Below, one piece after another: positions 1 to 51,099 of a DNA stretch of 64,000 nucleotides. The notes beneath the pieces were generated by a model. It saw only the letters and a list, made by a program, of their open reading frames with translations, ran no database searches and was not told the DNA's origin. The stretch comes from Bacteroidales bacterium (lineage in GTDB: Bacteria > Bacteroidota > Bacteroidia > Bacteroidales > P3). The position numbers and the translations under genes are program-made. The stretch is taken from the NCBI GenBank assembly GCA_017449975.1, contig JAFSYK010000096.1, positions 1-64,000 of the forward strand, in the 5' to 3' direction. Numbering within the stretch: the first letter of the stretch is position 1; each line of letters begins with the position of its first letter.

Positions 1-7
1 AAATTTC

Positions 8-425
8 GAACACGGATTTAACGGATAATACGGATTATCTATTCGGTAGATTCGTGTTCAGAGACATAGGGTAACATCTAAAAACACGAAACAAACGAAA
101 ATGATTTATCCGTATAATCCGTGTCATCCGTGTTCAGAGCAAAATTTCGAACACGAATCGCACGAATAACACGAATATTAATTTGTTAGATTCGGTAGAT
201 TCGTGTTCAGAGACATAGGGTAACATCTAAAAAAACGAAACAAACGAAAATGATTTATCCGTATAATCCGTGTCATCCGTGTTCAGAGTAAAAATTCGAC
301 CACGGATTTAACGGATAATACGGATATCTATTCGGTAGATTCGTGTTCAGACACCGTATATTTTCGAACACGAATTGCACGAATAACACGAATATTAATT
401 TGTTAGATTCGTTGGATTCGTGTTC
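8..425. repeat. Array of long hairpin repeats with 9-nt period
   Basis: This fills most of the 560-base gene-free start of the window. The first unit (8-135) is one long symmetric hairpin. GAACACGGAT at 8-17 pairs with ATCCGTGTTC at 126-135, ACGGAT at 21-26 with 117-122, and ACGGAT at 30-35 with 108-113. Inside these, TTCGTGTT at 51-58 pairs with AACACGAA at 83-90, and 42-45 with 96-99, around a loop at 59-82. The next unit (149-208) carries CGAAT words and folds on itself; a second copy of the right half follows at about 209-286. Further units lie at about 298-349 and 366-425. A single copy recurs at 20536-20595. No open frame of note is present. Function is unknown. Confidence 0.85.
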
Positions 426-524: not shown

Positions 525-557
525 GCTAACTGCTAACCGCTAACTGCTTTTTAGTTT
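525..557. repeat. CTAACTG-type 7-nt repeat
   Basis: Units of CTAACTG/CTAACCG are followed by a TTTTTAG run. The same phrase recurs at 30397-30476, in reverse complement at 33674-33716, and in altered form inside htpG at 38951-38979. With a TAA every 7 nt it carries stops in all three frames on this strand. Confidence 0.7.
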
Positions 558-30319: not shown

Positions 30320-30476
30320 TGAATTGGAGAATTGAGAATTGTTGAGTTGTTGAATTGTTGAGTTGTTGAATTGAGAATTGAGAATTGAAACTATTGCTGA
30401 CCACTAACCGCTAACTGCTAACTGCTAACTGCTAACTGCTAACTGCTTTTTAGTTTTTAGTTTTTACTTTTTAGTT
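30320..30476. repeat. Composite GAGAATT / GTTGAATTG / CTAACTG / TTTTTAG repeat tract
   Basis: This fills the gap before kdsB. In order: GAATT and GTTGAATTGTTGAG words, GAGAATT units, CTGACCACTAACCG, five perfect CTAACTG units (30411-30445), then TTTTTAG/TTTTTAC units to 30476. The same order of GAGAATT then CTGACTG words occurs inside htpG, and the CTAACTG-TTTTTAG part occurs reversed at 33674-33716. Confidence 0.85.
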
Positions 30477-31268: not shown

Positions 31269-32930
31269 ATGAATATTACAGAACTTATTGTAGATTATCT
31301 GAAACAAGGTCATGTTGTTGAACTGCCCAACATCGGTACCCTCAGCAACCAACGCCAATCCGCACACATGGACGATGCCACCCGCACCTTCCACGCGGGA
31401 CAAGATGCCGTCACATTCAGTTCCAACACCAATGGCAACAATGATATTGTGAAGTATCTGGCCGAAGTCGAATGCGTCGACATGAAGATTGCCCAGATGA
31501 TGTGGAAGAACTACGTGGACGCACTGAACGACAAGCTGAGTCGCACAGGCAGCCATCAGTTCCCCGGCATCGGTGAACTGCGTATGGCAAGTGGCAGTTA
31601 TCAATTCGACGGCATCGCCACACCTGTAAGCGGCGACACCCCCGTCATCACCGATGTAAAACACTACGAATCCGACAACTCCGACCCCTTCGCCGCCTTC
31701 GACGCCCCGAAAGAGGAGCCCATGCCCGAACCAGAACCGGAACCTAAACCCCTTCCAGAGCCGGAACCCGAGCCGGAGCCAGAGCCGGAAATACCGGAAC
31801 CTATAGCGACCCCGAAAGCCACGGAAGAAGCGGAAGTTCCCGCCATGCCCGAAACACCTGAGGTCCCTGAACCAATGGAAGCTCCGGTATTTTCAGAAAC
31901 CCCTGCACCCGCCGAGACCCCGGATACTCCTATCCAAAAGACGGAAAGCGACATCTTTGCAGGCATCTCCGACATTGCGGAACCGACCAAAGGCAAGAAA
32001 AAGAAAAAACACGGTTGGCTGTGGCTGCTTCTCTTGCTGCTTCTTTTGGCCGCAGGAGGATACTATTACTATACCCACTACTACCACCAAGCCGATACGG
32101 AACAGACGGCGGCGACCAACGACAGCATTGACCACCAAACCGTCACTGCCACCGAAGAAGACATTACCACCAGCGAGGAGACCGACGAAATCACGGAGGC
32201 AAAAGTCTATGGTGATGGCTATATGGACATCGTCAACATCTTCACCTTCAATACCGACCTGCTGGAATACGACGCCAACGAGTTTGTCGCCAACCGCAAC
32301 ATCATTCTGAACAATCTGAATGAATACTGGTCGCAGTTCCTCAGCAACCGTCATTACAGCAATGCAATGCCCTATATGCAGACCGCATTGTCGGAGTATA
32401 TCGACAACCGTCTGGCGGAACTCTTCAACAACGAAGGTTATTCCGTGCGTCGTTTCTTTAATTCCGACGACAATCTGCATCAGTTCTTCTACAACGAACT
32501 GAAATTCAAGAAAGCCTCTCATGCCCGCGTTACCATTCAAAGCGAGCTGATGGACTACGACATGCTGGACGAGATGCTGCGCCAGGTAGTGGAGGCCAAC
32601 GACCTGACCGCTTCGGATGTAGGTATCGCCGCCACAACGGTGAAACCCAAAGTCCAAGAGGCACCCAAGGCCGACGGCAACTACACGGCCCACATGGAGA
32701 GCAGCAGCAAGCAGGGATTCGACGTGATTGCAGGCTTCTACACCAACCGCCAGTCGGCCATCAAGATGACCTCGAGACTGAAGAGCCTGGGATGCGACGC
32801 CTACATCATCGACCACAACCACCTGTACTACGTCAGTATGGGCAGCGCCCCCACCCGTACGGCAGCCGAAGCGCTGTACAAGCAGATTACCAGCTGGTAT
32901 AGCGGATCGGTGGCCATCAAACAGTGGTAA
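31269..32930 (+). CDS. HU-domain and SPOR-domain membrane protein
   Basis: A three-part protein of a Bacteroidota type. Residues 1-125 form a prokaryotic HU (CCDC81-like) domain (VVELPNIGTLSNQ, FPGIGELRMA). Residues about 140-235 are an acidic Pro-Glu-rich stretch with alternating PEPEPE. A single transmembrane helix follows KGKKKKK near residues 248-262. The periplasmic part ends in a SPOR domain (about 475-550: FDVIAGFYTNRQSAIKMTSRLKSLG), a fold that binds denuded peptidoglycan at division sites. The layout predicts a cytoplasmic HU-like domain tethered to a septal-peptidoglycan sensor. The length of 553 and full motif content give no sign of truncation. Confidence 0.88.
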   Translation: MNITELIVDYLKQGHVVELPNIGTLSNQRQSAHMDDATRTFHAGQDAVTFSSNTNGNNDIVKYLAEVECVDMKIAQMMWKNYVDALNDKLSRTGSHQFPGIGELRMASGSYQFDGIATPVSGDTPVITDVKHYESDNSDPFAAFDAPKEEPMPEPEPEPKPLPEPEPEPEPEPEIPEPIATPKATEEAEVPAMPETPEVPEPMEAPVFSETPAPAETPDTPIQKTESDIFAGISDIAEPTKGKKKKKHGWLWLLLLLLLLAAGGYYYYTHYYHQADTEQTAATNDSIDHQTVTATEEDITTSEETDEITEAKVYGDGYMDIVNIFTFNTDLLEYDANEFVANRNIILNNLNEYWSQFLSNRHYSNAMPYMQTALSEYIDNRLAELFNNEGYSVRRFFNSDDNLHQFFYNELKFKKASHARVTIQSELMDYDMLDEMLRQVVEANDLTASDVGIAATTVKPKVQEAPKADGNYTAHMESSSKQGFDVIAGFYTNRQSAIKMTSRLKSLGCDAYIIDHNHLYYVSMGSAPTRTAAEALYKQITSWYSGSVAIKQW

Positions 32931-32936
32931 GACGTT

Positions 32937-33010
32937 AAGATGATAAGATGATAAGATGTTAAGGTGATATTTTCACAACTTCACATTTTCACATCTTCAC
33001 AACTTCACAT
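32937..33010. repeat. TTAAGATGA / TTCACANNT 9-nt repeats
   Basis: The gap before trmB consists of TAAGATGA words followed by TTCACAACT, TTCACATTT and TTCACATCT units in perfect 9-nt register. The same families are at 33721-33815 and 42465-42500. Confidence 0.75.
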
Positions 33011-33676: not shown

Positions 33677-33836
33677 AAAGTAAAAACTAAAAACTAAAAA
33701 GCAGTTAGCGGCTAGCAATAAAATGTTAAGATGTTAAGATGTTAAGATGAGAAGACGTTAAGTTCATAACTTCACAATTTCACAACTTCACAACTTCACG
33801 ATTCACGAATCACTAAACACTAAAAATAATAACAAT
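33674..33836. repeat. Composite CTAAAAAG / GTTAAGATG / TTCACAACT repeat tract
   Basis: The tract starts with the reverse complement of the CTAACTG-TTTTTAG element (33674-33716). It continues with three GTTAAGATG units, then TTCACAACT-type 9-nt units, and ends before yebC. The trmB stop codon lies in its first word. Confidence 0.8.
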
Positions 33837-38126: not shown

Positions 38127-40106
38127 CTATTTGATCATTTCGAGGCTGCGCTGGACAAATTGGGTGAGCGACTCGCCCTTGAGCAGTCCGTTGCTGAGCA
38201 ACGCCAGGTCGGTGAGCTGGTGGACCAGCTGTTTCTGCTTGTCGCCGTCTGACTCGGCCAGCACCGACGCCACCAGCGGGTGGTTGATGTTGACCACAAG
38301 GTTGTAGCTTTCGGGCATCTCGCCGTAGAAACTCATGCCACCGCCACTGGTCTGCGCCATCTCACGATAGCGGCGCATAAACTCGCTTTGGGTAATCAGC
38401 ATCGGCTGGTCGTCGCTCTCCAGCGGCTCTAACATCACGGTAAAACGCTGCTTGTCGACCTCGCCCTCGATGATGGGTTTCAGCTTCTCCTGATCCTCCT
38501 TCGACATCTTCTCGGGGATGCTGTCCTCGTGGGGAATCAGCTTCTCCACCACGTCGCCGTCGACACGCACAAAACGGGTCTTCTCGGTCTTCTGCTCCAG
38601 CAGGTTGACGAAGTGCGGCGTCAGCACGCTATCCATCAGCAACACATCGTAACCCTTGGCCTTGGCCTTGGCGATATAGGCGTGCTGCTCGTCGAGGTCG
38701 TTGGCGTAAAGATAGCACACCACCTTGTCCTTGTCGGTCTGCAGCGGCGCAATCTTCTCGCGGTAGCTGTCGAGCGACGTGAAGGTGCCGTCGGTACTCT
38801 TGAGCAGATAGAACTTCATGGCGCGCTCGCAGAACTTCTCGTCCGTCAGCATGCCGTACTCGACGAAAATCTTGATGTCGTCCCACTTCTCAGCAAGTTG
38901 AGAATTGAGAATTGAGAATTGAGAATTATCCTCTTCCTCTGTTTTGCTATCTGCTGACTGCTGACCGCTGACTGCTTTTGCCTTACTCATTTCCTCCAAC
39001 TTGTCGGCCACCTTTTTGCTGATGTGCGACGAAATCTTCTTCACATTGCTGTCGCTCTGCAGATAGCTGCGACTGACATTCAGCGGGATGTCGGGTGAGT
39101 CGAGTACGCCATGCAGCAACATCAGGTAGTCGGGCACCACACCCTCGACGCTGTCGGTCACAAAAACCTGATTGCAATAGAGTTGTATCTTATTCCGGTT
39201 GGGGTCGATGGTCTTGCGCACCTTCGGAAAATAGAGGATGCCGGTGAGGTTAAAGGGATAATCGACATTGAGGTGAATCTGGAACAGCGGCTCCTCGAAA
39301 TTCATGGGGTACAGCTCGTGGTAGAACTTGCGGTAGTCCTCGTCGGTCAGCGAGCTGGGTGACTTCTTCCAAGCGGGGTCGGTGTTGTTGATGATGCGCG
39401 GCTGTTTCTTCTCCACTCGTTTGGGCTTCGTCGTTTTACCGCCCTTTCCGTCGTCCACCTCCTCGGTCTCCGTCTCACTGTCCACCCACACCGTCTCGTC
39501 GCCAAAACGGATGGGAACGGGCATAAAGCGACAGTATTTGCGGAGCAGCTGCAGAATCTTCTGGTCCTCAAGGAACTCCTTGCAGTCATCGGCGATATGG
39601 AGGATGATTTCCGTGCCACGCTCCTTTTTCTTGCATTCCTCCATGGTGAAGGCAGGCGAGCCGTCGCAGGTCCAATGCACCGCCGGTGCATCCTGGTACG
39701 ACTTGGTCTTGATTTCCACCTTGTCGGCCACCATGAAAGCGGAATAGAAGCCGAGTCCGAAGTGACCGATAAGGTTCTCCTGCACATCTTTGTATTTATC
39801 CAGGAAATCGGAAGCGCCACTGAAAGCAATCTGATTGATATACTTCTCCACCTCCTCGGCGGTCATGCCGATGCCGTGGTCGGAAACGGTGAGTGTCTTC
39901 TTGTCGAGCTTTACCTCCACCGTCAGGTCGCCCAACTCCCCTTGCATCTCACCGCGCGACGAGAGGGCACGGAGTTTCTGGGTGGCGTCGATGGCGTTGG
40001 AAACCAGCTCACGGAGAAAAATCTCATGGTCGGAATAAAGGAACTTCTTGATAACCGGGAAGATGTTCTCGGTCTGCACATTCAGGTTACCGTTGGTCTT
40101 GGACAT
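38127..40106 (-). CDS. htpG: Chaperone HtpG (Hsp90) with repeat-expanded linker
   Basis: ATP-dependent chaperone. The N-terminal ATPase motifs are complete: ELVSNAIDA (33-41), DHGIGM (76-81) and HFGLGFYSAFMV (about 112-123). The middle and C-terminal domains follow to residue 659. A charged segment near 215-235 (GKGGKTTKPKR) is common in this family. A second low-complexity segment at about residues 376-403 (AVSGQQSADSK and NSQFSILNSQL) lies between KKVADKLEEM and EKWDDIKIFVEYG. In my recollection of relatives this junction is a short linker. Its DNA (38900-38979) is made of the intergenic repeat words. The reading frame is open and the rest of the protein is intact. Confidence 0.95.
   Translation of the reverse strand: MSKTNGNLNVQTENIFPVIKKFLYSDHEIFLRELVSNAIDATQKLRALSSRGEMQGELGDLTVEVKLDKKTLTVSDHGIGMTAEEVEKYINQIAFSGASDFLDKYKDVQENLIGHFGLGFYSAFMVADKVEIKTKSYQDAPAVHWTCDGSPAFTMEECKKKERGTEIILHIADDCKEFLEDQKILQLLRKYCRFMPVPIRFGDETVWVDSETETEEVDDGKGGKTTKPKRVEKKQPRIINNTDPAWKKSPSSLTDEDYRKFYHELYPMNFEEPLFQIHLNVDYPFNLTGILYFPKVRKTIDPNRNKIQLYCNQVFVTDSVEGVVPDYLMLLHGVLDSPDIPLNVSRSYLQSDSNVKKISSHISKKVADKLEEMSKAKAVSGQQSADSKTEEEDNSQFSILNSQLAEKWDDIKIFVEYGMLTDEKFCERAMKFYLLKSTDGTFTSLDSYREKIAPLQTDKDKVVCYLYANDLDEQHAYIAKAKAKGYDVLLMDSVLTPHFVNLLEQKTEKTRFVRVDGDVVEKLIPHEDSIPEKMSKEDQEKLKPIIEGEVDKQRFTVMLEPLESDDQPMLITQSEFMRRYREMAQTSGGGMSFYGEMPESYNLVVNINHPLVASVLAESDGDKQKQLVHQLTDLALLSNGLLKGESLTQFVQRSLEMIK
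38900..38979. repeat. GAGAATT and CTGACTG repeats inside htpG
   Basis: Four perfect GAGAATT units (38900-38927), a short spacer, then CTGCTGACTGCTGACCGCTG-type words (38951-38979). The same two word families follow in the same order in the intergenic tract 30320-30476. In htpG the intergenic CTAACTG reads CTGACTG, so TAG on the coding strand becomes CAG. Confidence 0.85.
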
Positions 40107-42421: not shown

Positions 42422-42459
42422 TTTGTCCATTGGCTCCACAAGGTCGCCGACCTCAGTTC

Positions 42460-42545
42460 ACCATTCACATCTTCACACCTTCACAACTTCACCATTCTCC
42501 CTAAAACCCTCATCCCCTCACACCCTAAAACCCTTAAACCCCTCA
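42460..42545. repeat. TTCACANNT and CCCTAAAACC-type repeats
   Basis: TTCACCATTCACATCTTCAC words (9-nt type) are followed by CCCTAAAACCC / CCCTTAAACCCC words up to the nagB start. Similar C-rich words precede 47762 and form the end of the gene at 45401. Confidence 0.7.
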
Positions 42546-47761: not shown

Positions 47762-48742
47762 ATGAAGAACTTTGCATTGATCGGCGCAGCCGGATACATC
47801 GCGCCTCGACATATTAAAGCCATCAGTGATACTGGCAACAATCTGGTTGCCGCCTTCGACCATTTCGACAGCGTGGGACGACTCGACAGTTCCTTTCCGC
47901 AATGCAACTTCTTTGTCGAGCATGCCCTTTTCGACCGCTACTGCAACAAGGTGCGCGGCGGCGCGGAGAACATCGATTGGATGGCCATCTGTACGCCTAA
48001 CTACACCCACGACGCCTACATCCGCTACGGATTGCGGCTGGGTGCCAACGTCATCTGCGAGAAGCCCGTGGTGCTGAACCCGTGGAACATCGATGCACTT
48101 ACACAGGTGGAACAGGAAACAGGACACCAGGCTTACACCATCTTGCAGCTGCGTCTGCACGACAAAATTGTAGCGTTGAAAGAGCAGGTGGACAGTGGCG
48201 ACAAAGACAAATGCTACGATATCGACCTCACCTACATCACCTCGCGCGGCAACTGGTACTACACCTCGTGGAAAGGCGACGTACACAAGAGTGGCGGCGT
48301 GGCCACCAATATCGGCGTCCATTTTTACGACATGCTGCAATGGATTTTCGGCCCCGTGCAGAACAACATCGTCCATGTGATGAGTTTCGACCGAGTAGCC
48401 GGCTATCTGGAGTTGAAGCAAGCCCGTGTGCGCTATTTCTTGAGCATCAACGCCAAATGCCTGCCCAAAGAAGCAGTACGTGAAGGAAAGCGGACCTACC
48501 GAACACTGAGAATCAACGGCGAGGAATTCGAGTTCAGCCAAGGCTTCACCGAGCTGCACACCAAAAGCTACGAGGAAATCCTGGCAGGTCGAGGATTCCG
48601 CATCGAGATAGCAAAGGAAAGCATCCAGATTGTCCACGACATCCGCAACTCTACCCCCGTCGGTCTGCAGGGCGACTACCACCCGCTGGCCAAACTGGCA
48701 TTGGACGAACATCCATTCGGATGGAACGACATGAAGTACTGA
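47762..48742 (+). CDS. wbpB: Gfo/Idh/MocA oxidoreductase, WbpB/WlbA-like
   Basis: NAD-dependent sugar oxidase. In the Wbp/Wlb pathways it oxidises the 3-OH of UDP-GlcNAcA before transamination. The N-terminal NAD motif reads LIGAAGYIAPRH (6-17), with the Gly pattern slightly altered as in WlbA. CEKPVVLNPW carries the conserved Lys, and SGGVATNIGVHFYDMLQW holds the conserved Asp/His region. The length of 326 is typical. The next gene is the matching aminotransferase (WbpE-like), which supports the assignment. Confidence 0.87.
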   Translation: MKNFALIGAAGYIAPRHIKAISDTGNNLVAAFDHFDSVGRLDSSFPQCNFFVEHALFDRYCNKVRGGAENIDWMAICTPNYTHDAYIRYGLRLGANVICEKPVVLNPWNIDALTQVEQETGHQAYTILQLRLHDKIVALKEQVDSGDKDKCYDIDLTYITSRGNWYYTSWKGDVHKSGGVATNIGVHFYDMLQWIFGPVQNNIVHVMSFDRVAGYLELKQARVRYFLSINAKCLPKEAVREGKRTYRTLRINGEEFEFSQGFTELHTKSYEEILAGRGFRIEIAKESIQIVHDIRNSTPVGLQGDYHPLAKLALDEHPFGWNDMKY

Positions 48743-48744
48743 TT

Positions 48745-48778
48745 GAATTGAGAGTTGAGAATTGAGAATTGAGAATTA
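48745..48778. repeat. GAGAATT repeat
   Basis: TTGAATTGAGAGTTGAGAAT followed by two further GAGAATT units, the same 7-nt family as at 30360-30388 and inside htpG. Confidence 0.75.
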
Positions 48779-48791
48779 ACAAACACTCACT

Positions 48792-49925
48792 ATGGAATTC
48801 CGGGATTTGAAACGGCAGTACCGGCACTTGAAGGCCGACATTGACCAGGCTATGGTCGACGTCGCTGCATCGGGCGACTACATCATGGGCGCACCTGTCA
48901 AAGCGCTGGAGTGTGAACTGGCCGAGTATGTCGGCGTCAAACACTGTCTCACCTGCGGTAACGGTACCAACGCACTGACACTGGCACTCAAAGCCTGGGG
49001 CATCGGCAAGGGCGACGCAGTCTTCGTACCCGACTTCACCTTCTTCGCTTCAGCCGAGGTGGTGGCGCTGGAAGGAGCCACCCCCGTCTTTGTCGATGTC
49101 AATCCCCGCACTTTCAACATCGACAGTGCCAATCTGGAGCAAGCTGTTGCTGAGGTTAAGCGTGAGGGTGTTCTGCGTCCGCGTGTGATTGTCGCCGTCG
49201 ACCTCTTCGGTCTGCCTGCCGACTTTGGCACCCTGCGCACCATCGCCGACCACGAAGGTCTGTTGCTGCTCGAAGACGGCGCACAAGGTTTTGGCGGTAG
49301 CATCGACGGACAACGCGCCTGCAGTTTCGGCGACATCGCCACCACGTCGTTCTTCCCGGCCAAACCGCTGGGCTGCTACGGCGACGGCGGTGCGGTCTTC
49401 ACCGACAGCGACGAGTGGGCGCTGTTGATTGAATCCTACCGCGTCCACGGCAAGGGCAGCAACAAATACGACAACGTGCGCATCGGTCTCAACTCGCGTC
49501 TCGACAGTCTGCAAGCCGCCATCCTGCAGGTGAAACTCAACGCTTTCCGCAACCACGAGCTGCAAGACGTGAACCTTGCAGCACAACGTTACAACACACT
49601 ACTGCAACCCTTGACAGACAAACTAACACTGCCGCTCATCCCCCAAGGATTTGGCAGCAGTTGGGCACAATACACACTGATACTCAACGACAGCGTCAAC
49701 CGTGCCAGTCTGCAGGCGGCATTGAAAGAGAAAGGCATCCCCTCTATTGTATACTATCCAACACCTATGAGTCGTCAGACCGCATTTCAACATGTGCACC
49801 ACTATGTGGAGACACCCATAGCACAACGTTTATCACAACTGGTGTTTTCACTCCCTATCCATCCATATATTACCCAAACCGAAACCGAAATCGTCTGCAA
49901 TGCATTAGAGAGTCATCTGATCTAA
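48792..49925 (+). CDS. wbpE: DegT/DnrJ/EryC1/StrS aminotransferase, WbpE-like
   Basis: PLP-dependent sugar aminotransferase, predicted to make the 3-amino group on UDP-GlcNAc3NA. The PLP-binding Lys191 is in FFPAKPLGCYGDGGA, EDGAQGFGGS holds the Asp that contacts the cofactor, and TCGNGTNALTLAL is the phosphate-binding helix. The length of 377 is normal. The start MEFRDLKRQYRHLK matches the WbpE/WlbC group. It sits between WbpB-like and WbpI-like genes. A dedicated acetyltransferase (WbpD) is not adjacent and may be elsewhere. Confidence 0.88.
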   Translation: MEFRDLKRQYRHLKADIDQAMVDVAASGDYIMGAPVKALECELAEYVGVKHCLTCGNGTNALTLALKAWGIGKGDAVFVPDFTFFASAEVVALEGATPVFVDVNPRTFNIDSANLEQAVAEVKREGVLRPRVIVAVDLFGLPADFGTLRTIADHEGLLLLEDGAQGFGGSIDGQRACSFGDIATTSFFPAKPLGCYGDGGAVFTDSDEWALLIESYRVHGKGSNKYDNVRIGLNSRLDSLQAAILQVKLNAFRNHELQDVNLAAQRYNTLLQPLTDKLTLPLIPQGFGSSWAQYTLILNDSVNRASLQAALKEKGIPSIVYYPTPMSRQTAFQHVHHYVETPIAQRLSQLVFSLPIHPYITQTETEIVCNALESHLI

Positions 49926-49950: not shown

Positions 49951-51099
49951 ATGAGCGAAAAAAAGAACATCCATCTACTCTCAGTTGTTGGGACACGTCC
50001 TCAGATTATCAAATCTGAGGCCATACTGCGTGCTGCTTGCGCATACAACGACATACGGGTAGAAGTAAAAAGTCTTCACACCGGGCAACACTACGATGCC
50101 AACATGTCGCAGGTCTTCTTCGACGAGTTGGGCATCCCACTGCCCGACTACAATCTGGGGGTCGGGTCGGGTCGACATGGGGAACAGACCGCCAAAATAA
50201 TTGCCGGCATCGAGGAGGTCCTGCTATCCGAACCCTTCGACGGAATTATCCTCTACGGCGACACCAACTCCACGCTGGCGGGAGCCGTGGCGGCATCCAA
50301 GCTGCACGTCCCCGTTTTCCATATCGAAGCGGGGCTGCGCTCCTTCAACATGGCGATGCCCGAGGAGGTGAACCGCATCGTCTGCGACCAACTCTCCAGC
50401 ATCTGTTTCGCGCCTACGCAGACCGCCGTCGACAATCTCCAGCGAGAGGGCTTCAATGACAGTCGAGCCACCTTCCGCAACGGAAAAAAACGGCTGATCT
50501 CCCTCAGCGGCGACGTGATGTACGACAACAGTCTCCACTTCGCACAAATAGCCCGACAGCGCAGCAAGCTGCTACATGAACTCGAGCTGGAGCCCAACGG
50601 CTATGTGCTGGCCACCATCCACCGCGACAACAACACCGACAACCCCGAGCGTCTCTCCGCCATACTGACCTCGCTCTCCAGAATTGCACAGCAAGACCAC
50701 ATCCCCGTCGTCATGCCGCTGCATCCCCGCACCAAAGCCCGCATCGAGCAACTCAACAATTCAACAATTCAACAATTCAACAGCCTCACCCTCATCTCCC
50801 CCGCCTCCTTCTTGGATATGACACTACTGGAGCAGTCAGCCAAAATTGTGATGACCGACAGCGGCGGTGTACAGAAAGAGGCATTCTTCTTCGAGAAGCC
50901 GTGTATCATCCTGCGTCCCGAAACGGAATGGGTGGAGATTGTGGAGCACGGTGCCGGTATCATCGCCGATGCCGACAGTACACGCATCGAAGCAGCCTAC
51001 CGCCAGTTGATCAACCGCGAAGTGCACTTCCCTCCCCTTTTCGGCGACGGCCACGCCGCAGAACTAATCCTCAGCCAGATTTTTCAATATATGGGATAA
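49951..51099 (+). CDS. wbpI: UDP-GlcNAc 2-epimerase family, WbpI-like, with repeat insertion
   Basis: Predicted UDP-2,3-diacetamido-glucuronic acid 2-epimerase. VVGTRPQIIKSEA (9-21), HIEAGLRSFNMAMPEEVNR and TIHRDNNTDNPERL are typical of WbpI rather than WecB, and MTDSGGVQKEAFFFEKP is the C-terminal motif. The length is 382. Residues about 267-278 (QLNNSTIQQFNS) are encoded by CAACAATT repeats (50749-50782) that also occur in intergenic tracts. They lie on a surface-loop-like stretch between KARIE and LTLISPASF. With wbpB and wbpE it would give UDP-ManNAc3NAcA. Confidence 0.88.
   Translation: MSEKKNIHLLSVVGTRPQIIKSEAILRAACAYNDIRVEVKSLHTGQHYDANMSQVFFDELGIPLPDYNLGVGSGRHGEQTAKIIAGIEEVLLSEPFDGIILYGDTNSTLAGAVAASKLHVPVFHIEAGLRSFNMAMPEEVNRIVCDQLSSICFAPTQTAVDNLQREGFNDSRATFRNGKKRLISLSGDVMYDNSLHFAQIARQRSKLLHELELEPNGYVLATIHRDNNTDNPERLSAILTSLSRIAQQDHIPVVMPLHPRTKARIEQLNNSTIQQFNSLTLISPASFLDMTLLEQSAKIVMTDSGGVQKEAFFFEKPCIILRPETEWVEIVEHGAGIIADADSTRIEAAYRQLINREVHFPPLFGDGHAAELILSQIFQYMG
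50749..50782. repeat. CAACAATT repeats inside the WbpI-like gene
   Basis: CAACTCAACAATT followed by two more CAACAATT units and CAAC. The reverse complement, GTTGAATTGTTGAGTTG, is found in the intergenic tract at 30335-30375. The coding orientation is free of stop triplets. Confidence 0.8.

Follow-up and report, generated by a model that had tools for sequence, protein, structure and literature searches.

Residues 374–403 of the chaperone HtpG in the window, a stretch of 64,000 nucleotides from a Bacteroidales genome (G000), are coded largely by two tracts of short repeat words, CAGTCAGCGGTCAGCAGTCAGCAGATAGC and four units of AATTCTC. Words of both families also lie between genes, and word tracts of several kinds reside in frame in unrelated genes of this genome and of its relatives. 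The reading that we consider best, with a probability of about 0.7, is recurrent colonisation of permissive protein loops by dispersed repeats, which resemble the Rickettsia palindromic elements (RPEs) but have no fixed element sequence.

The HtpG loop and the word tracts of the window

The product of htpG matches PF00183 above the cut-off and the solved structure of E. coli HtpG with an E-value of 5.4e-63. On the coding strand, CAGTCAGCGGTCAGCAGTCAGCAGATAGC is followed by an 18-nt spacer and then by the four AATTCTC units. The longest perfect period-7 run in the gene is 30 nt, whereas 2000 shuffles of its codons gave at most 17. In an AlphaFold2 model (29 sequences, mean pLDDT 79.8), the repeat-derived segment is predicted to be a coil between two helices (residues 353–374 and 403–421), and the pLDDT is below 50 for residues 378–397. 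In all likelihood, the peptide encoded by the insert is disordered and neutral. The initial annotation had placed it in a linker between the middle and C-terminal parts of the protein. However, alignment with E. coli HtpG, read with what we take to be the domain borders, apparently places the loop within the middle domain.

The four AATTCTC units and the GTCAG tract of htpG had also been noticed to share their order with the intergenic tract at 30320–30476, and this was confirmed; the orientation is shared as well. On the minus strand, the intergenic tract has GTTAG and GTCAG words and then AATTCTC words, and its GTYAG words are mainly the stop-bearing GTTAG. The in-frame tract of the UDP-sugar 2-epimerase-like gene is built of an 8-nt word (QLNNSTIQQFNS), and the loop that it encodes is only about two residues longer than that of a solved homologue. 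Octamer tracts of TAAGATGA or TAAGATGT, TTCACAAC, and CCCTAAAA adjoin each other at 32928–33009, 33719–33799, and 42459–42541, forming another co-travelling word combination. Window positions 1–343, at the contig start, form an imperfect tandem repeat whose period is 149 nt and which contains AACACGAAT words.

Table 1. Repeat-word features of the window and the genes that carry them
Feature	Position	Strand	Basis
htpG (HSP90 family), 659 aa, frame intact	38127..40106	-	ORF and translation
Repeat-derived HtpG loop, residues 374–403 (SKAKAVSGQQSADSKTEEEDNSQFSILNSQ)	38898..38987	-	comparison, predicted model
GTCAG-type words CAGTCAGCGGTCAGCAGTCAGCAGATAGC in htpG, form without stops	38946..38974	-	read on coding strand
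AATTCTC x4 (GAGAATT on plus strand), perfect, encodes NSQFSILNSQ	38898..38927	-	TRF, 4.3 copies, 100% match
Intergenic tract with the two word families of htpG and a TTTTTAG tract	30320..30476	.	TRF, word reading
In-frame word tract in a loop of the UDP-sugar 2-epimerase-like gene (49951–51099), reads EQLNNSTIQQFNSL	50746..50787	+	
GAATTGA tract flanked by an ORF that ends at 48742 and one that starts at 48792	48745..48777	.	
GTTAG-word tract outside open frames	525..548	-	

Loop length among relatives

The loop was compared at 130 HtpG loci, with some genomes represented twice. All 56 loci from outside the genus (53–60% identity in the best segment) have one short loop of fixed length, and six genomes from other genera of the same family likewise have a short loop of fixed length. 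This alignment had been proposed as a check on the insert: a non-repetitive linker of the same length is not conserved in the distant relatives, where the loop is short and fixed. Among the relatives aligned, long loops are found only inside the genus, in which three classes occur: a short loop, a conserved class with four additional residues (SKKKEGEEKSALEE), and a long hypervariable class. The loop peptides ENGELKIEN...NSQLSTFNSQ, SDKSDKSD, SPITHHSS, and SRSLEVSK resemble translated repeat words. In many of the long loops, no words are obvious.

The window genome and G031 are sister species (SH-aLRT 99) with 91% identical HtpG proteins. The loop is long in G000 and short in G031, and the difference of 23 residues is close to the lengthening of roughly 25 residues that was first estimated. 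On an htpG tree built by a quick method from 91 proteins after excision of the loop (of the 99 loci, 8 were unusable, and 31 of the 88 inner branches are weakly supported), the long class requires 17 changes, at least 7 of which are forced by well-supported branches.

Some exchange of htpG alleles between species by recombination is likely. A further proposal is that the long loop of the window itself came from homologous recombination with the long-loop htpG of a related species, the words being secondary edits and not an entry from the same genome; we regard this as rather unlikely. G000 and G064 do have long loops beside short-loop sisters, the loop of G064 resembles those of G073, G112, and G079, and the loop ends MSK... 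and ...QL(E/A)EKWDD are common to many long loops. In most 90-nt segments by the loop, G000 is closest to a genome other than its sister: on the left to G117, G117, G083, and G032, and on the right to G094 (94% vs 86% for G031), followed by a segment in which G031 itself is nearest. However, the region is highly conserved, so that these identities discriminate poorly and the recombination signal is suggestive only. The GTCAG tract and the 26-nt AATTCTC stretch of the G000 loop match inserts in its own open frame C15 and its own ileS, and the GTCAG plus AATTCTC combination is absent from the htpG loops of other species among those listed. Recombination at htpG would also leave ileS, sdhA, and nqrA unexplained.

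The heptad tract might instead be a functional device, either switching HtpG by phase variation or, as an mRNA hairpin, tuning its translation. Slippage of the four perfect 7-nt units could shift the frame, and some htpG loops fold strongly. Nevertheless, such a role is very improbable. Only two of the 99 htpG loci are split by a frameshift or stop, both outside the loop (L180 in G018, near residue 300; L036 in G078, near residue 350), and no split of the kind that frameshifted alleles would show was found inside the loop at these loci, which represent one genome per species and include a few cut by contig ends. Furthermore, the window's loop is no hairpin, and word tracts occur in many unrelated genes. 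Beside its normal htpG, G089 has a second, divergent HSP90-like gene (G089:C28:2005-3075; 38% identity over residues 10–374).

An assembly artefact of metagenome bins is scarcely credible. The near relatives with named records are mostly MAGs or uncultured, and repeats are prone to misassembly, but the inserts are in frame and short (less than about 110 nt), and they turn up again, with sequences that differ, in many separate assemblies.

Repeat words between genes and inside other genes

When 1.59 Mb (149 loci, some of them picked for their words) were scanned mechanically, 130 arrays with a period of 7, 8, or 10 were found; 52 of them lie within an open frame that extends for 30 codons or more on each side. 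The window and 20 pieces of G000 selected by their contig numbers (297,685 bases) contain 37 arrays, 13 of them in open frames, at least one of which is spurious. Mechanical counting of open frames over-calls coding: the tract at 48755 was counted as in frame, yet it lies between two ORFs. In 395,620 bases of G000, chosen partly for the word, 17 of 32 AATTCTC clusters lie in open frames that continue for 20 codons or more on each side. The remaining 15, together with 16 of the 21 GTYAG clusters in the G000 DNA examined, lie outside open frames.

Protein families name ten of the 17 AATTCTC frames: a Por-sorting-domain protein, a folK fusion, nqrA, DltB-like, SusC-like, and patatin-like proteins, ileS, an ABC-F ATPase, a MurL-like protein, and htpG. 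In the folK, DltB, SusC, patatin, and Por cases, the family match does not cover the tract. Three frames (C15, C36, and C55) had no match in the family-library scan, which left out C5:21046, C60:17738, and C41:55313; the spurious frame at 48755 is also one of the 17. The tract at C5:21046 lies just ahead of what, judged by its motif, looks like the start of recG. In all 17 frames, the AATTCTC words are in the sense orientation because an open frame is required. In a SusC-like protein of G000 (L268:1903-2000), the signal-peptide region (FCASLILNSQFSNLNSVQAQ) is built of AATTCTC words.

In-frame tracts of G000 are found in htpG, ileS, sdhA, nqrA, polA, and MurL-like and ABC-F-like genes, and those of relatives are found in folC, dxs, and NUDIX genes. 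Residues 508–533 of SdhA have no counterpart in the solved relative 9lay. Across the genus (30 loci each), ileS and sdhA have short base states (e.g., FKLCDQADTYAIAWT; IQGEHSVDHYHKALG), with word inserts in some genomes. The ileS loop of G031 is long yet wordless; therefore, loops at such sites vary without words too, and wordless variation at ileS is also seen in G018 and G039. In a protein of G083 (L253), several AAGCGGA arrays alternate with EEPKAE segments; therefore, much of this low-complexity stretch is derived from repeat words.

Stop-bearing and stop-free words are divided between intergenic and coding DNA. Outside open frames, the 16 tracts of the DNA examined contain 46 GTTAG and 11 GTCAG units, whereas four coding tracts, a count that left out a fifth open-frame cluster, contain no GTTAG and 13 GTCAG units. 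This comparison of variants, also suggested with the initial annotation, indicates that CTGACTG is not the common form and that the stop-bearing word dominates between genes (46 of 57). CAGTYAGCAGTYAGC occurs 11 times genome-wide, always with T; the pattern requires two perfect adjacent words, and the htpG copy itself does not match it. In the intergenic tract C4:22633, a run of GTCAG units adjoins AATTCTC words. The htpG copy had been described as a repeat with its stop codons removed. Stop-bearing units are indeed absent from the coding tracts (0 of 13), but editing after entry, which that description implies, need not be assumed: because stop-free units already exist between genes (11 of 57), the survival of stop-free copies suffices.

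Across 120 genomes of the genus, AATTCTC and four other words were tallied; the tests ignore kinship. AATTCTCAATTCTCAA occurs 66 times in G000 vs 2 times in its short-loop sister G031. The eight genomes with AATTCTCAA in the loop have higher AATTCTCAATTCTCAA counts than the other 83 (p = 0.011, kinship ignored) and than 32 other long-loop genomes (p = 0.006, kinship ignored). The count is zero in two of the eight, and, among the genomes whose loop sequence was available, AATTCTC pairs are more numerous in several that lack this word in htpG (G109, 116; G030, 99; G055, 87; G027, 87; and G021, 72). AAGCGRAAAGCGRAAAG, which represents the AAGCGRA word, is most frequent in G054 (98), G045 (96), G042 (69), and G083 (37), and all other counts are 18 or fewer. 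The word is present in the htpG loops of G045, G042, and G083 (ranks 2–4 of 120), and the loop of G054 has a decayed form. CATCACTCATCACTCATCAC, which represents the CATCACT word, is highest of the 120 in G002 (95; next G007, 33), whose loop contains a near copy. Within G049, TCGAAGTC was found only in the htpG loop, and the same holds for GACAAGTC within G067; these two were rejected as genome-abundant words. For three of the five words, the loop-carrying genomes are among the richest genome-wide, and for two they are not. In a k-mer test over ±9 kb, the score for a loop's own genome was conspicuous in just 5 of 35 long-loop genomes; the long-loop median (0.59) was below the mean of the control stretches (1.17).

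Some inserts share sequence between genes and between species. The htpG and sdhA genes of G007 have 33 identical nucleotides in common, and the AATTCTC stretch common to htpG and ileS of G000 spans 26 nt. G112 htpG and G000 ileS share 24 nt that include both arm and core, and the same arm-plus-core composite is present in the queG-like gene of G104. The htpG combination of GTCAG words followed by AATTCTC words is also found in the open frame C15 and in intergenic tracts of G000. In permutation tests, words were shared within the same genome by htpG and sdhA in 2 of 20 cases (p about 0.011) and by ileS and sdhA in 3 of 23 (p about 0.005); sharing between htpG and ileS (1 of 22, p about 0.54) was not significant.

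A minority of inserts have a near-perfect hairpin anatomy, consisting of words, a core (sometimes GGCTGACGC), and reverse-complement words. Folding is far stronger than in shuffles for five of the 40 long htpG loops (G007, z = −5.6; G002, −5.3; G104, −4.1; G118, −3.9; and G049, −3.3). Most are not hairpins (mean z = −0.68, n = 40, vs −0.42 for control stretches), including that of the window (z = −1.0). Hairpins account for 4 of 14 ileS inserts of at least 60 nt (G012, −7.7; G004, −6.4; G007, −4.8; and G001, −4.8) and one of two sdhA inserts (G007, −5.1; the other, in G000, has −2.5). Hairpin composites of the same anatomy, apparently intergenic and judged by eye, are present in G079. GGCTGACGC was rejected as a genome-wide tag, being hardly enriched in the DNA examined (41 occurrences vs 32 for the reversed control), and was kept as a recurrent core only. 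No single element sequence or peptide is conserved across the copies; the arms vary by genome, and recurrence is limited to part of the core and, now and then, an ...ADA... peptide.

Ordinary local slippage in an indel-tolerant loop, with the likeness to intergenic words arising from a shared mutational bias, would agree with the wordless variation of the ileS loops and with the words of G049 and G067, which are nearly private to the loop. Even so, we consider it improbable. Slippage alone would hardly yield the long identity between htpG and sdhA of G007, hairpins with inverted arms, an arm and core common to htpG, ileS, and the queG-like gene in different species, or the recurrence in C15 of the two words combined in htpG. 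The shared arm-plus-core composites already count against slippage as the sole cause.

Proposed course of colonisation and comparison with known systems

The proposed recurrent colonisation may proceed as follows. Arrays of short words (mostly 7–9 nt) are dispersed between genes in the genomes of the genus, some copies taking the form of hairpins composed of words, a core that is sometimes GGCTGACGC, and reverse-complement words. Fold-back copying in replication could make such matched inverted arms from resident words. Copies would enter or replace loops of housekeeping genes in which indels are tolerated, and a copy would be retained only if the frame stayed open, which calls for the right orientation, stop-free variants, and a length that is a multiple of three. 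Through this filter, the same permissive loops (htpG, ileS, and sdhA) would be occupied again and again, in several cases by words that the genome in question holds in large numbers. We infer that the copying runs from intergenic tracts into genes, that the inserts are neutral, and that survival acts as the filter. The original idea of a repeat that entered a core chaperone and was kept open agrees with the dispersal of the words in the genome and with the open frame; it does not hold as a single event, since the phenomenon recurs at htpG, ileS, sdhA, and other genes. A Y1/RAYT transposase (PF01797) was rejected as the mobiliser: it is present in 41 of 60 genomes, shows a Spearman coefficient of −0.12 (p = 0.36) with the AATTCTC counts, and is absent from six genomes with 38–87 AATTCTC copies.

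In a stronger form, each genome would keep rewriting the loops of essential genes with its own current intergenic words, the arms being replaced in concert while the core GGCTGACGC persists, in an RPE-like manner with no fixed element. We put this forward tentatively and would sooner doubt than accept it. If it is true, coding sequence and intergenic repeats co-evolve, and the turnover of words can be read from the loops of htpG, ileS, and sdhA. The genus offers a natural experiment on the spread of repeats, on protein loops that tolerate insertion, and on the passage of non-coding into coding sequence. Annotators and structure modellers should be cautious, as such loops may hold no conserved information.

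The RPEs were reportedly described by Ogata et al. in Science in 2000. Their families comprise copies of about 150 bp that code for a conserved peptide, according to the accessible text of PMC10969869. The likeness to the present repeats is that short palindrome-forming repeats lie both between genes and in frame in unrelated housekeeping genes (PMC10969869, same text). Here, in contrast, the hosts are Bacteroidales, the arms vary by genome, the core is variable too, and most copies in htpG form no palindrome. Having no fixed element sequence, these repeats lack one feature that defines an RPE family; therefore, we call them RPE-like and not RPEs.

CGTC-tagged REPs are small hairpins that also occur in Bacteroidetes and lie in coding regions of several species; they have a stem of 8–9 bp and a loop of 4–5 nt and no known dedicated transposase, and the RPEs of R. 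conorii end in CGTC (accessible text of PMC3733652). The core GGCTGACGCGTCAGCC of G007 htpG, read by eye, has CGTC on both strands. However, the arms here are tens of nucleotides of tandem words, as opposed to stems of 8–9 bp (PMC3733652, same text). TAACTGA heptamer repeats are known, mainly from intergenic DNA, in Beggiatoaceae, Cyanobacteria, and five Bacteroidetes (accessible text of PMC4679880). They too are heptanucleotide direct repeats, mostly intergenic and patchy by strain, with one Bacteroidetes case in a putative purC; the word is different, and that text does not describe a hairpin composite or the reuse of one core-gene loop (PMC4679880). The coding palindromes of Nematomorpha mitochondria are likewise inverted repeats inside protein-coding genes, but they are mitochondrial, and genome-wide tandem words are not mentioned in the accessible text of PMC6649704.

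Among the matches listed from the open-access literature, the titles and abstract openings contain no description of in-frame word colonisation in Bacteroidales. In-frame dispersed repeats in bacterial genes are best known from Rickettsia, together with intragenic REPs. Here they reside in many core genes of an uncultured gut Bacteroidales genus, in the same loops across species, and with words that are in several cases specific to the genome.
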